From: a gamma proteobacterium HIMB55
GTDB lineage: Bacteria > Pseudomonadota > Gammaproteobacteria > Pseudomonadales > Halieaceae
Length of the DNA: 64,000 nucleotides
Assembly: GCA_000227505.4 (NCBI GenBank)
Contig: AGIF02000001.1
Location: 1,508,035 to 1,572,034, forward strand
Direction: 5' to 3'
Shown: positions 1,129-40,578 of the stretch, in pieces
Position numbering within the stretch: position 1 is the stretch's first letter
How the letters are laid out: each line of letters opens with the position of its first letter
The notes under the pieces: generated by a model
What the model was told of the DNA's origin: nothing
Database searches by the model: none
The model's input: only the letters and a program-made list of their open reading frames with translations
Position numbers and translations under genes: made by a program

Positions 1129-2337
1129 ATGAAAGCTGAGCGCGATGAACTGGGATTTGATGCGCCTGCCCCCTTGGGGCATCCGGTGCGTGCAAGCATG
1201 CCCGAGCAACATGCCACGGGTCCCCAAATGGGAGAACGTCTCCCTGACTTCAGCGTAAACGACGCCTACGGGAATCGTGTTAACTTCCATGTAGATCGCG
1301 GTGACAGCAAGGCCGCGCTTGTATTCTATCGCTCCGCCGTTTGGTGACCCCCCTGCTGGACGCAGCTAGGTGAGTTGCGAGATTCTTACGCGAAGTTTGA
1401 AGCTGCTGGCATCAAGCTATACGCGCTGTCGTACGACGATCAGGAAACCTTAGCTGAATTTGCCGAAAATCAGCGCATTCCCTACACCCTGCTCTCGGAT
1501 ACGCGCTCGGCGGTTATCAAGCAGTATGGCCTGCTCAACGAGCAGCTAACGGAGGCAGACGGGCCGCTGTACGGAATTCCCTACCCGGGCGTTTACGTGT
1601 GTGACGAACAGGGCGTCGTAACGTCTAAGTTTTTCCACGACTCTTACAAAAAGCGCGAAAGCCCTGAAATGCTGATTGATGCGGCGCTTGGTAAAATTCA
1701 AATCGATGAGTCGGCGCCTAAAGTATCATCCACGGATGGCGGTATTGAAATCACGGCCGCGCTACATGGCGGTAACGGCAGCCTGCGCCAAGGCATTGTA
1801 AGACAGCTTGTCGTGTCCTTTGATTTACCCCAGGGACTGCATATTTACGGTGAGCCAGTGCCTAAAGGCCTGACAGCAACACATATCGAAGTTAAAGGCC
1901 CCGATGGTCTTGTTTTGCTGCCGATGCAGTCGCCTGCCACCCACTCCCTTCATCTCGCTTCGATCGGTGAGACACTTGAAGTCTGGAGTGGTCGGGTGGA
2001 TCTCGTCATCCCGCTTTATCCGGTCGGTGAGCTTGTCAGTGAATGCCGCCCCCTGGACGCACCGAACGTTGAAGTCACCGTTAATGTGACGTTCCAAGCG
2101 TGCAACCAGACCGAGTGCCTTTTACCGCAAACACGACAGCTCTCGTTAACTTTACCGCTCGATGTGGTTGATGTACCTAATCTCGCGATTCACACCGGTC
2201 ACGGCCAGCGAGAAGGTAATTACGACAGCACCCCGGCGATGAAGCGCCTCGTTAGACGAAAAACGCGCGGCAACCCTTTCCGCCTTGCGCAATTTTTATG
2301 GCGGCAGATGAAAATGCGCCGTCAGCTGAAGCGCTGA
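1129..2337 (+). CDS. Putative selenoprotein: redoxin (AhpC/TSA-like) domain fused to a DsbD-N-like domain
   Basis: The frame holds one in-frame TGA at 1345-1347, read here as selenocysteine, giving 402 residues with Sec at about 73. Residues 40-200 form a peroxiredoxin-like redoxin: FYRSAVW, then U-P-P-C-W, then a thioredoxin-fold body that remains fully conserved after the TGA. Family members normally have C-P-x-C there, so Sec replaces the first active-site Cys (C76 is the second). Residues about 220-350 resemble the N-terminal domain of DsbD, including the pair C325 and C330 in FQACNQTECLLPQ; the tail is very basic. No signal peptide is visible, which is odd for a DsbD-N domain. The start is uncertain: the ATG at 1129 is used, but an in-frame TTG exists at 1054. 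An automatic caller would split this gene in two or call it a pseudogene. Confidence 0.82.
1361..1379 (+). promoter_or_regulatory. Candidate bacterial SECIS hairpin of the first selenoprotein
   Basis: CGCAGC (1361-1366) pairs with GTTGCG (1374-1379), including one G-U pair, and encloses the loop TAGGTGA. The loop begins 20 bases after the TGA at 1345-1347. Published bacterial SECIS models expect a short stem whose loop, carrying a G near its start, lies roughly 16-37 bases after the UGA; the stem length and distance fit. A competing fold (CCTGCTG with CAGCTAGG, 1352-1370) places the loop closer to the TGA. The exact active structure is inference. Confidence 0.55.
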
Positions 2338-2470
2338 GTTTTCCAATCATTGAAAAGTCGCGATGCTGCTGAAGGCGTGGAGCAGTGATCTTCACAAAAT
2401 AGAATGACCACGTCTGGAATTAGCCTATGGCTCAGCGCAACTTTTGTGGCTGGGATATCGCCCGCGATTT

Positions 2471-3244
2471 TTACGGCAAAGTGTCGAAATGTGCTTCCAT
2501 AGCGGCCAGAACAACTGCAGGGTCCGAGCGGCGCTGATAGTTCTCAGAAAGATCGCGCCATAAAACCGTGCCATCGCGATCAACCAGTAGCGTTGCGGGC
2601 ACGGGCAAAGCCTTGGCGGGCTCGCTAGCTGGTGCTGAGTGGACGCCTTGGTTACGAAGACCAAACGCATCTGTCACCAATAAGGTCTGATCAGAAAGCA
2701 TTGTGGCTTGAATACCATGCAAATGCCGCTTTTCTGCAATGACCTCTGGCAAGTCGACACTCACGGTGACTACTTTGACGCCGCGCTTATCAAATTCTGG
2801 TCTTAACTCTTCCATTCGACGTAACTCGCCGATGCAGTAGGGTCACCAATGCGCCCTGAAGAATTTAATAAGCACCAGGTGGCCATTGAGTGATCGGGAG
2901 TCGAACTCGGCCCCACTATCATCAACGGACTTAAACCGGGGTATTGTCTCGCCCACATCGATCGCCACATCGCGAGCAACCACCTGCTCACTGATCATCA
3001 TCGTCGCAGGCAGAAATAGCCCTACCACAATGGCGAAGATCGGGGGAACGGCGCCCAGCCAACCCGTTCGCTTCACAAAAGCCAAAACACCAAGGCAAAC
3101 ACAGGCGAGAAAAACTACAACAAAGCCCGTTCGGTCCTCGGGCAGTGCAACCTCGCGGGTGAGATGAAACCAATACCACGCCGTAGATGCCGCGAGTACC
3201 GCCGCCAACAGTCCGATCTTTGTGCCTGGTTTCATATCATTCAT
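2471..3244 (-). CDS. Putative membrane-anchored selenoprotein, peroxiredoxin-like redoxin
   Basis: One in-frame TGA (2843-2845) interrupts an otherwise continuous frame of 257 residues, and is read as selenocysteine at position 134. The N-terminal 90 residues hold three predicted membrane helices (about 10-27, 42-58 and 64-84). A redoxin domain follows: VGETIPRFKSVDDSG, LIKFFRAHW, then U-P-Y-C-I-G-E-L. Many peroxiredoxin-like proteins have HWCPYC at this place, so Sec replaces the first Cys and C137 is the second. The conserved fold continues downstream (VVTVSVD, PVPATLLVDRDG). The protein probably reduces peroxides or disulfides at the inner membrane; topology is not certain. The start is ATG at 3242-3244, with a second ATG four codons in. 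It is convergent with the other selenoprotein gene, 133 bases apart. Confidence 0.82.
2816..2832 (-). promoter_or_regulatory. Candidate bacterial SECIS hairpin of the second selenoprotein
   Basis: On the minus strand TCGGCG (2827-2832) pairs with CGTCGA (2816-2821), six pairs with one G-U, around the loop AGTTA (2822-2826). The loop starts 17 bases after the TGA at 2843-2845, inside the window expected for bacterial SECIS elements. The neighbouring CAT/ATG triplets can extend the stem past a bulged A. This is a fold read by eye, not a computed one. Confidence 0.55.
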
Positions 3245-8972: not shown

Positions 8973-10688
8973 ATGCCGATTGAGCCGAGGAAGCGACACA
9001 GCATCTATTCGTTTTTGAACTTAATTTTACTTGGGGTCGCGCCTCTATCCGCAGCCTCTGAGCGATGTTATGAGTCGGAGAGTCGACCATTATGGGGTGA
9101 CCTTCACGTTCACACGAGTTATTCCCTCGACGCCAACGTCTTTGGCACCCTGGCCACACCGGCCGATGCCTACCGGTTTGCCAAAGGCGAGCCGCTCACC
9201 CGGGCCGATGGCACAACGGTAAAGCTTGCGCGCCCGCTCGATTTTGTTGCGGTGACTGAGCACGCTGAGTGGCTAGACTTCACCGCAATTTGCGACGGCC
9301 CAGACGCGCCTTCCTACCAGGACTGCCAGAACCTATTGTCCAACCGTTCACCCGCGAAAGGCTCAGAACTCTTCAGAGAGTACGTAGTCACAACAATAAC
9401 GGGACCTACGCCAAAACCACTCGCACTGTGTGACGATGAAAATGCGCAATGTACTGAAACTGCGCTAACGCGGTGGGAATCGATTCAGGCCCAAACGGAG
9501 GCAGCTTACGAACCCTGCGCCTTTACCACGCTACACGGATATGAATGGAGCCATACGCCCAACTTTAAACACGCGCACCGAAACATATTATTCAGAACGT
9601 CAGACGTCACTTATGAAGCGCTCGATTACATTCATTACCCCACTGTTGAGTCGCTTTGGGACGCACTCGATAAAACCTGTGTCGAGCAAGACGGCTGCAA
9701 AGCGCTCACAATTCCCCACAACACTAACATGGGCAACGGCATAAGCTTTGAGCTTGCTCAAGCGACTGTAAAAAGTCTCAAGCAGCGCGGGCAGTACGAA
9801 CGGCTTATCGAGATCACTCAAGAGAAAGGCACCAGTGAGTGCTTGCCCGAAGATCAAGCTGACCTGTCTAGCGACTGCGGCTTTGAGTTGTTTCTGACCC
9901 AGCAGTCACGGCCTACGCCACGAGAAGTTTTCTCTACAGAAGACTGGCAAACAATGCGATCAACCTATGGACGCTCGCTAGTTGGGAGTGGGCTTGCGTT
10001 TCCCGGAGATGCGGCACCACTGCGCTTGGGATTTATCGGCTCGACCGACACCCATGCCGCGACACCCGGTTACGTCGATGAGCGAACGTGGACAGGCAGC
10101 GCGCTAGCGGGCGCCGGCTTTGAGGGTGCCGTGCGAAGTAATGCATGGAGTGCTGGGGGCTTAGTGGGCGTATGGGCTGAGGAAAATACGCGAGAAGCGA
10201 TTTTTGATGCGCTTTACAGACGCGAGGTCTATGCAACATCAGGACCTCGTATTTCATTGCGCTTTGGTCTCACAACGCAGAATAAAAACACGTGCCAAGG
10301 AGATGAGTGGGCACCCGAGGTAAACATGGGCGGTATTTCTACACTCTCTTCGCAGCCCACTTTCTACGTACAGGCACAAGCTGATACCACGCCCTTATCA
10401 GAAATCGAGATTATCAAACTGACTCGCGTGGACGGTGAGACCAAAGAACAAGTGATTAGGGTCTGGCAAGCCGATGGCAATCGTATGACAGCCTGCATTA
10501 CTTGGACTGACACTGAGTTCAAACAGAATCACGCAACCGCCTGGTACCCAAGGGTGAAAGAAAAGTTAGTGCCACGCTGGAGCGCTATTCAATGCGAAAA
10601 AGCCGGGCGCTGCGATGAGTTTCCAGAGATGAATACCGAGATAGCCGAGAGGGCGTGGGGCTCTCCTATATGGCATATCCCTGAGTAA
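8973..10688 (+). CDS. Exported DUF3604 domain protein (PHP-like putative metallohydrolase)
   Basis: The protein of 571 residues starts with a signal peptide (hydrophobic FLNLILLGVAPLSAAS, cleavage near residue 29), so it is periplasmic or outer-membrane associated. DUF3604 proteins belong to the PHP-type metal-dependent hydrolase group. The motif WGDLHVHTSYSLDA near residues 41-54, the later TEHAEW, and the block GFIGSTDTHAATPGYV carry His/Asp residues placed like metal ligands. It is rich in cysteines outside the core, which fits an oxidising compartment. The substrate is unknown for the family. The ATG at 8973 follows a GGAGA ribosome site. Confidence 0.85.
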   Translation: MPIEPRKRHSIYSFLNLILLGVAPLSAASERCYESESRPLWGDLHVHTSYSLDANVFGTLATPADAYRFAKGEPLTRADGTTVKLARPLDFVAVTEHAEWLDFTAICDGPDAPSYQDCQNLLSNRSPAKGSELFREYVVTTITGPTPKPLALCDDENAQCTETALTRWESIQAQTEAAYEPCAFTTLHGYEWSHTPNFKHAHRNILFRTSDVTYEALDYIHYPTVESLWDALDKTCVEQDGCKALTIPHNTNMGNGISFELAQATVKSLKQRGQYERLIEITQEKGTSECLPEDQADLSSDCGFELFLTQQSRPTPREVFSTEDWQTMRSTYGRSLVGSGLAFPGDAAPLRLGFIGSTDTHAATPGYVDERTWTGSALAGAGFEGAVRSNAWSAGGLVGVWAEENTREAIFDALYRREVYATSGPRISLRFGLTTQNKNTCQGDEWAPEVNMGGISTLSSQPTFYVQAQADTTPLSEIEIIKLTRVDGETKEQVIRVWQADGNRMTACITWTDTEFKQNHATAWYPRVKEKLVPRWSAIQCEKAGRCDEFPEMNTEIAERAWGSPIWHIPE

Positions 10689-37379: not shown

Positions 37380-37464
37380 AAATCATCGCTTCCTTTTCAA
37401 CGCGTTGAGTTGCGCAATTAAGTCGAGCGCGTTTAACAGCCGACTCATCGACGGTAAACCTCTC

Positions 37465-40379: not shown

Positions 40380-40440
40380 GCGCGAACCCTAGCACAAAAT
40401 CTAATTGACTCAGACAAATCATGGGCGTATTGTCCGCGCC

Positions 40441-40556
40441 TCAGGTGCCTACAGGTGGAAACGCCCGGGTAGGTTAAAAGGGAAGTCTGGATGAACCAGC
40501 GCTGCCCCCGCAACGGTAAGTGCATGTCGTATGCAAAGCCCGATACCTGCCTGATA
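40441..40556 (+). promoter_or_regulatory. Cobalamin (adenosylcobalamin) riboswitch aptamer
   Basis: The leader before btuB has the ordered conserved elements of a cobalamin riboswitch: AGGTGCC near 40443, AAAAGGGAAGTCTGG near 40476, the B12 box GCTGCCCCCGCAACGGTAAG (40501-40520), and AGCCCGATACCTGCC near 40538-40552. Binding of the coenzyme is expected to switch off the downstream operon. The expression platform is annotated separately. Confidence 0.95.
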
Positions 40557-40578
40557 ACTAAAACCCGATGGCGCGGTG

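Follow-up and report, generated by a model that had tools for sequence, protein, structure and literature searches.

Two convergent redoxin genes with in-frame TGA codons in gamma proteobacterium HIMB55: a predicted selenoprotein pair

When an in-frame TGA stands where a redoxin should carry its catalytic cysteine, is the gene broken, or is the codon read as selenocysteine (Sec; U in motifs)? The genome of gamma proteobacterium HIMB55 (Halieaceae) raises this question twice, in two neighboring genes that we call P1 and P2, located in a 64,000-nucleotide stretch of contig AGIF02000001.1 (positions 1,508,035 to 1,572,034). This whole stretch is referred to as the window, and coordinates are those of the window unless assigned to the contig or to a named locus. 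An earlier note, made from the letters of the window, had read the two genes as a selenoprotein pair. Our analysis supports that reading, with evidence from the Sec machinery of the genome, the conservation of the TGA, and hairpins downstream of it, which in P2 show compensatory changes. P1 and P2 are very probably selenoproteins, in which hairpin-guided insertion by SelB and Sec-tRNA would place Sec at the first position of a U-x-x-C motif, giving thiol/selenol-disulfide oxidoreductases resembling ResA and PrxQ.

In-frame TGA codons and the selenocysteine machinery

The two genes converge, with 133 nt between their stop codons, and apart from one internal TGA each, their frames are fully open (the terminal stop of P1, at 2335-2337, is likewise TGA).

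1129-2337, + strand: P1 gene, predicted 402-residue selenoprotein, an AhpC/TSA redoxin fused to a DsbD_N-like domain
1345-1347, + strand: P1 predicted Sec (TGA) codon, first residue of U-P-P-C, in the context RSAVW-U-PPC
2471-3244, - strand: P2 gene, predicted 257-residue selenoprotein with a redoxin domain behind three N-terminal membrane helices
2843-2845, - strand: P2 predicted Sec (TGA) codon, first residue of U-P-Y-C, in the context RAHW-U-PYC

As the earlier note had described, both frames remain in phase across the single TGA, which sits in the redoxin motif after RSAVW or RAHW and before P-x-C. Gene callers that treat TGA as a stop only would truncate both proteins. A coarse scan of the 64 kb for TGA codons flanked on each side by 60 or more open codons returned 21 places, five of which are not overlapped by a longer frame; P1 and P2 are two of these five. 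The places at 37385 and 49727 were translated and, by eye, have an ordinary gene start shortly 3' of the TGA, while the place at 1066 lies immediately 5' of a 185-amino-acid open reading frame.

Reading by alignment across the column found TGA in all close relatives: 18/18 for P1 (17 of the 18 family genomes, in which the match covers the column, plus locus L154) and 70/70 for P2 (67 relatives from named genomes, the window, and loci L090 and L096). The codon is kept down to 34% protein identity in P1 and about 40% in P2, with frames open on both sides in nearly all sequences; one P1 relative (L028, the same as L124) contains a further TAG. In the family search of 140 genomes, P1 matched 58 at 1e-15, of which 18 were clearly stronger (at least about 270 bits) and the remaining 40 weak and confined to the redoxin part. 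P2 matched 34 genomes, 33 of them with TGA and one, G024 (30% identity), without a stop; TGA was read at the column itself in 32 of the 33 P2 family genomes, G129 being the one not read. Seven weaker rows of the P1 search (G010, G034, G042, G046, G056 on C16, G125, and G131) also list a TGA, which may mark either further Sec redoxins or end stops.

A scan of 84,980 named genomes, using two peptide patterns that limit which relatives can be found, yielded 67 P2 relatives that are 40–85% identical, all with TGA (67/67). Their titles span Halieaceae, other Gammaproteobacteria, Myxococcota/Deltaproteobacteria, Acidobacteria/Thermoanaerobaculia, Binatia, and Spirochaeta, mostly as metagenome-assembled genomes, for which misbinning is possible; many of the Halieaceae had already appeared among the genomes of the family search. 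Later sequence sets were gathered by a TGG-TGA pattern, so the TGA counts in those sets are not independent. More distant redoxins carry Cys at the column, in 12/12 loci read (L032-L043), and a Cys form of the full P2 architecture was found in none of the family, class, named-genome, and plasmid searches. The class search of 369 genomes matched only the source genome, at strict thresholds (1e-30/1e-40) by which weaker relatives would be missed. Plasmids gave only partial matches below 60% identity (59 and 56 records), and PHROGs one weak match for P2 and none for P1. Judged from the aligned sequences, TGA at the catalytic column is far beyond chance. The earlier note had thought a random nonsense mutation unlikely and had pointed to homologues with Cys or Sec at this column as the check; the alignments agree with it on both counts.

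It had also proposed a search for selA, selB, selD, and selC, and all four are present in the source genome, a single contig of 2.74 Mb, with selA-selB-selC lying 4–8 kb left of the window (positions below are of the contig).

1,500,227-1,501,588: selA, 580.6 bits against a cut-off of 267.9
1,503,421: selB (the position is that of its wing domain); selB as a whole scores 389.7 bits against a cut-off of 242.25
1,503,638-1,503,727: tRNA-Sec gene (selC), anticodon TCA, 72.5 bits
983,776-984,717: selD, 405.8 bits against a cut-off of 125

By eye, selD has Cys at what we take to be its active-site position, and the rhodanese-domain gene beside it (L098:3561-6006) is presumably the tRNA selenouridine synthase gene mnmH; selenophosphate would then have two apparent uses in this genome. 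Across the Halieaceae, selB (PF09107) accompanies P1 or P2 in 28 of the 35 genomes that have either gene, and was detected in 13 of the 105 that have neither (Fisher p 2e-13, for genomes that are related and not independent). Among the seven exceptions, most of selB is present in G103, both selA and tRNA-Sec in G118, and a portion of selA in G064. No selA, selB, or tRNA-Sec was found in G076, G087, and G117, which are 79–89% complete, nor in the seventh, G013, which is weighed in the next section; any tRNA-Sec candidates in these four are tRNA-Ser.

SECIS-type hairpins and readings without selenocysteine

Each TGA is followed by a hairpin of the selenocysteine insertion sequence (SECIS) type.

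1361-1379, + strand: P1 hairpin (-7.9 kcal/mol), stem of 7 bp, start of the loop AGGUG at a distance of 20 nt from the TGA
2815-2833, - strand: P2 hairpin, stem of 7 bp in the family and of 6 bp in the window, start of the loop AGUUA at a distance of 16 nt from the TGA

The bacterial SECIS model, as given in a passage of PMC13188914, has a loop of 3–9 nt, a stem of 4–16 bp, G in the first two loop positions, a distance from the UGA of 16–37 nt, and an energy of -7.5 kcal/mol or lower. The P1 hairpin agrees with it in the window, and a plain stem attains -7.5 in 16 of the 18 P1 sequences, the exceptions being L118 and L122. All points of the model hold as a plain stem in 65 of the 70 P2 sequences. 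In the window, the P2 loop, stem, and 16-nt spacing fit, and the 48-nt fold (-10.2 kcal/mol) retains most of the stem.

For a comparative view, we aligned 70 P2 (65 distinct) and 18 P1 (16 distinct) sequences from the TGA onward. The P2 family hairpin, with the loop AGUUR, has 98.2% of cells paired against a shuffle mean of 91.5, a value reached by 0/500 shuffles, and sliding the stem to other registers leaves at most 69.2% paired. Its covariation score is 0.221 against 0.118 for shuffled sequences, again reached by 0/500. At columns 17/27, both sides have changed in 23 of the 65 distinct sequences. A Gly/Ala codon covaries with the wobble position of the Arg codon that follows three codons later (GCC-CGG in 44, GGC-CGT in 22, and GGC-CGC in 3), and the stem pair is kept in 69/70, the exception being L096 with GCC and AAA. 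Because the change on the Arg side is synonymous, protein constraint does not easily explain the covariation, which looks like a natural record of a SECIS maintained against protein-level change. In P1, 97.3% of stem cells are paired. The Glu codon within the hairpin is GAG in 70/70 P2 and 18/18 P1 sequences. Codon diversity in 7-codon windows is 0.23–0.24 at +3/+4 in P2 against a background of 0.60; in P1, it is 0.20–0.26 at +3/+5 against 0.49, a 4-column window at +16 being equally low (0.19). The 19-nt hairpins, which were chosen afterwards, have z scores of -3.13 and -3.72 against shuffles.

Several observations pull in the other direction. Two of the five P2 covariation measures do not rise above shuffles (both-side changes, 500/500; further pair types, 374/500), the covariation concerns one pair only, and its cells count sequences, not events; related sequences free of structure can still outscore shuffles. 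Among the 18 P1 sequences, the hairpin has undergone no compensatory change and does not exceed shuffles, and in the 48-nt fold of the P1 sequence in the window, a competing fold wins. The plain P2 stem of the window has -6.1 to -6.9 kcal/mol, short of -7.5, and the 48-nt stretches fold no better than shuffles (z -0.88 and -0.67). L096 (genome G114; 9107-9154) keeps the TGA with a P2 hairpin that is broken in the shared register by a Lys codon in place of Arg, and may use another SECIS form. Lastly, G013, listed as 100% complete in 6 contigs, has P2 with TGA, yet no selA, selB, or tRNA-Sec was found in it; since its hairpin is intact and the match (L090, 4400-5161, - strand) contains no other stop, either the loss of Sec was recent or the locus is unassembled.

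How do readings without Sec fare against the same evidence? Were P1 and P2 pseudogenes, with nonsense mutations at the catalytic Cys codon, the TGA that does interrupt each frame would be accounted for, and nothing specific speaks for it otherwise. With the TGA in every one of the 18 P1 and 70 P2 sequences, flanking frames open in nearly all of them, and Sec machinery in the genome, this account retains practically no probability, and the TGA conservation refutes it for the P1 and P2 families. The UGA might instead be read as another amino acid, for instance Cys or Trp, through an unusual tRNA; Cys homologues do exist, and Cys insertion would give an active protein too. However, the genome has the full set of tRNA-Sec, SelA, SelB, and SelD, each TGA precedes a SECIS-type hairpin, and ordinary Cys codons could simply serve, which makes this second account very improbable. 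On the selenoprotein reading, SelB with Sec-tRNA, directed by the hairpin 3' of each UGA, would insert Sec in vivo at the first U-x-x-C position.

A third redoxin gene with TGA lies in the source genome at about 302.1–303.3 kb (L081:895-2088, - strand), in the context FYRGFW-U-PPC. By eye, the hairpin CUCCG-AGUUG-CGGAG follows its TGA; the protein scores 34.1 bits for PF00578 and 18.8 for SelL_rel_redox against a cut-off of 120. On such sequence features, the apparent Sec redoxins of this genome number three or more.

Predicted proteins, gene linkage, and function

Both proteins contain a PF00578 redoxin domain, joined in each case to a different partner region.

1231-1623, + strand: P1 AhpC/TSA redoxin domain, residues 35-165 (PF00578, 99.4 bits against a cut-off of 26)
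1801-2148, + strand: P1 DsbD_N-like domain, residues 225-340 (PF11412, 36 bits against a cut-off of 25)
2996-3229, - strand: P2 three predicted membrane helices, residues 6-83 (model secondary structure, hydropathy, and charge)
2558-2956, - strand: P2 AhpC/TSA redoxin domain, residues 97-229 (PF00578, 87.3 bits against a cut-off of 26)

DsbD_N was matched by 15 of the 16 members of set A2, and Cys325 and Cys330 (C-x4-C) in the DsbD_N-like domain are kept in 15/15 rows that cover them. The structure model of P1 has a mean pLDDT (predicted local distance difference test) of 86.1, and peroxiredoxins and ResA are among the best 50 fold matches listed; a profile of the C-terminal domain compared with solved structures found no nDsbD. 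Hydropathy gave no hydrophobic segment of signal-peptide or membrane type in P1, and the domain scan no match to PF02683, the DsbD membrane domain. P1 is probably soluble and cytoplasmic. In DsbD itself, the Cys pair of DsbD_N is not cytoplasmic, unlike the predicted placing of P1; lacking a signal-peptide or membrane segment, P1 would use its Cys325/Cys330 pair in the cytoplasm. The P2 model (mean pLDDT 90.7) has helices at residues 6-30, 39-57, and 63-83, the first under the hydropathy mark of 1.6 used, followed by a redoxin fold whose best matches are Bcp/PrxQ and ResA. Its mean net charge over 32 sequences (+1.94 at the N-terminus, -0.41 in loop 1, +1.41 in loop 2, and -1.88 after helix 3) favours a predicted N-in topology with the redoxin domain on the outer face of the inner membrane. 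Hydropathy and charge thus agree with the earlier note, which had made one protein cytoplasmic and the other membrane-bound.

Are the two genes linked beyond this window? P1 and P2 are adjacent and convergent in 13 of the 16 family genomes with both, and lie on different contigs in the other three. Their match ends are 17–178 nt apart, with 178 in G073, whose P1 match stops early and contains TAG. The cultured relative HTCC2080 (L119) is one carrier of the pair. A convergent P1-like neighbour occurs at 13/67 named P2 loci, comprising 12 in the Halieaceae group plus L154 (title Thermoanaerobaculia), in which P1 is 34% identical, with TGA and DsbD_N, and P2 is 57% identical; no selA, selB, or tRNA-Sec was found within its 8-kb locus. 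At six other named loci (L128, L130, L131, L143, L148, and L152; titles Myxococcota/Myxococcales/Deltaproteobacteria), P2 is directly preceded by a DsbD-like gene of the same orientation, and both of those scanned (L143:3518-5971 and L128:3465-5852) have DsbD_N, DsbD_TM, and thioredoxin domains. A P1-like or DsbD-like neighbour is thus found at 19 or more of the 67 loci, a floor, given the short flanks at a number of them. Further genes shared near P2 (DUF3604 and sulfatase by eye, among others) vary and suggest no function. With regard to the machinery, selB shares the contig and stands at most about 15 kb away in eight of the 35 family genomes that have P1 or P2 (G000, G040, G058, G059, G084, G088, G092, and G122); G114 also has it on that contig, far off, and the remaining selB-bearing ones have it on a different contig. 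At L129:6001-6923, P2 terminates about 70 nt short of a tRNA-Sec gene that converges on it, and selB and selA come next.

In the mechanism that we propose, attack of the selenolate on a disulfide or a peroxide would be resolved by the Cys that stands three residues later. The Cys pair of the DsbD_N-like domain in P1 might pass electrons to or from the Sec site, and P2 would sit in the inner membrane with its redoxin domain outside, where DsbD could reduce it. Since a DsbD-like gene stands upstream of P2 in six loci, DsbD-type reducing power is the most likely source there.

The earlier note had added that the two proteins may work together. Recurrent adjacency supports this; the predicted redoxin domains on opposite sides of the membrane do not, and these differing locations speak against direct electron transfer between P1 and P2. 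Of the 33 family genomes with P2, 17 lack P1; of the 18 with P1, two lack P2, one of them a case at a contig end. Whether P1 and P2 serve one pathway seems to us an even question. They could also be selenoproteins of unrelated function, merely co-located in a Sec island near selABC, as the closeness of selB in those eight genomes, the frequent solitary P2, the differing compartments, and the lack of a shared operon between convergent genes would suggest. Against this stand the same convergent order in L154, with none of selA, selB, and tRNA-Sec found in its 8-kb locus, and the DsbD_N domain in P1 alongside the DsbD-like gene beside P2 in six other loci; we consider it quite possible, a little short of even. 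The chemistry, too, has a competing account, in which P1 and P2 are Sec peroxiredoxins acting as peroxidases, in line with PF00578 and with best folds that include Bcp/PrxQ and AhpE. A passage of a 2026 review gives TxxU as the Sec peroxiredoxin motif (PMC13188914); it is absent here, both proteins having Ala at -3. U-x-x-C without TxxU favours thiol/selenol-disulfide exchange over peroxidase chemistry, as do the ResA/TlpA-like matches, and we regard the peroxidase account as unlikely.

P2 might further represent a Sec-obligate family of membrane redoxins, with Sec at a fixed step of an electron path across the inner membrane where Cys is insufficient. The 70/70 TGA count, the several phylum labels, and the neighbours with a DsbD_N module (P1 or a DsbD-like protein) point that way, and we offer the idea tentatively, as a rather doubtful one. 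A redoxin family without a Cys form, if true, would provide a clean test of what Sec does beyond Cys. Halieaceae are called abundant in coastal seawater in a passage of PMC10100682, and the P1-P2 pair would give marine Halieaceae a concrete selenium demand. Elsewhere in the window, a cobalamin riboswitch lies at 40426-40568 on the + strand (Rfam RF00174, 51.7 bits).

Relation to known selenoproteins and redoxins

Sec-for-Cys UxxC redoxins in marine bacteria, which the earlier note had given as known, are indeed already described, in passages of PMC13188914, PMC9312934, PMC2398784, and PMC1088965. The closest of them are the peroxiredoxin (Prx)-like thiol:disulfide oxidoreductase selenoproteins ('Prx-like 1/3', Global Ocean Sampling), which, according to those same passages, resemble P1 and P2 in PF00578 and UxxC, in their occurrence in marine bacteria, and in having been predicted from TGA/Cys pairs. 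Single P1 or P2 members may have been counted in such surveys. Three features set P1 and P2 apart from them: the DsbD_N domain at the C-terminus of P1, the three N-terminal membrane helices of a P2 for which no form other than Sec was found, and the recurrence of the two as a convergent pair. A UxxC redoxin fused to a Cys-bearing domain has also been described, similar to P1 in that respect; according to that description, its fused domain carries CxxC, whereas P1 has C-x4-C.

DsbD is related through the C-terminal domain of P1, which matches DsbD_N, and through the six loci where P2 follows a DsbD-like gene. Unlike DsbD, P1 has no DsbD membrane domain or signal peptide, the single-chain DsbD architecture is absent, and P2 is a separate protein. 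P2 resembles ResA/TlpA in its membrane anchor, a redoxin domain predicted outside, and the active-site motif, with ResA among its top sequence and fold matches, but differs in having three helices and Sec for Cys, and scores 49.8 against 170 for NCBIfam ResA and 31.4 against 230 for TlpA. Families related to redoxin selenoproteins are also distant: SelL-related NF040769 gives 34.8 bits for P1 and 24 for P2 against a cut-off of 120, and WAxxUGC_long NF041054 gives 23.1 for P2 against 300. Adjacent selenoprotein genes are likewise known from Grd, Prd, SAO, and Tso, and from Prx/SelW neighbours; in the passages concerned (PMC13188914 and PMC2398784), those are operons or read-level neighbours, whereas P1 and P2 converge.

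In the open-licence literature searched, supplements excluded, we found neither the P1-P2 pair, nor a Sec redoxin fused to DsbD_N, nor a Sec-only three-helix redoxin, and no paper that joins selenocysteine with Halieaceae or the UPYC/UPPC motifs with a selenoprotein. In summary, the architecture of P1 and P2, their pairing, and the apparently Sec-only P2 look new, set within a known group of UxxC selenoproteins of the same fold.

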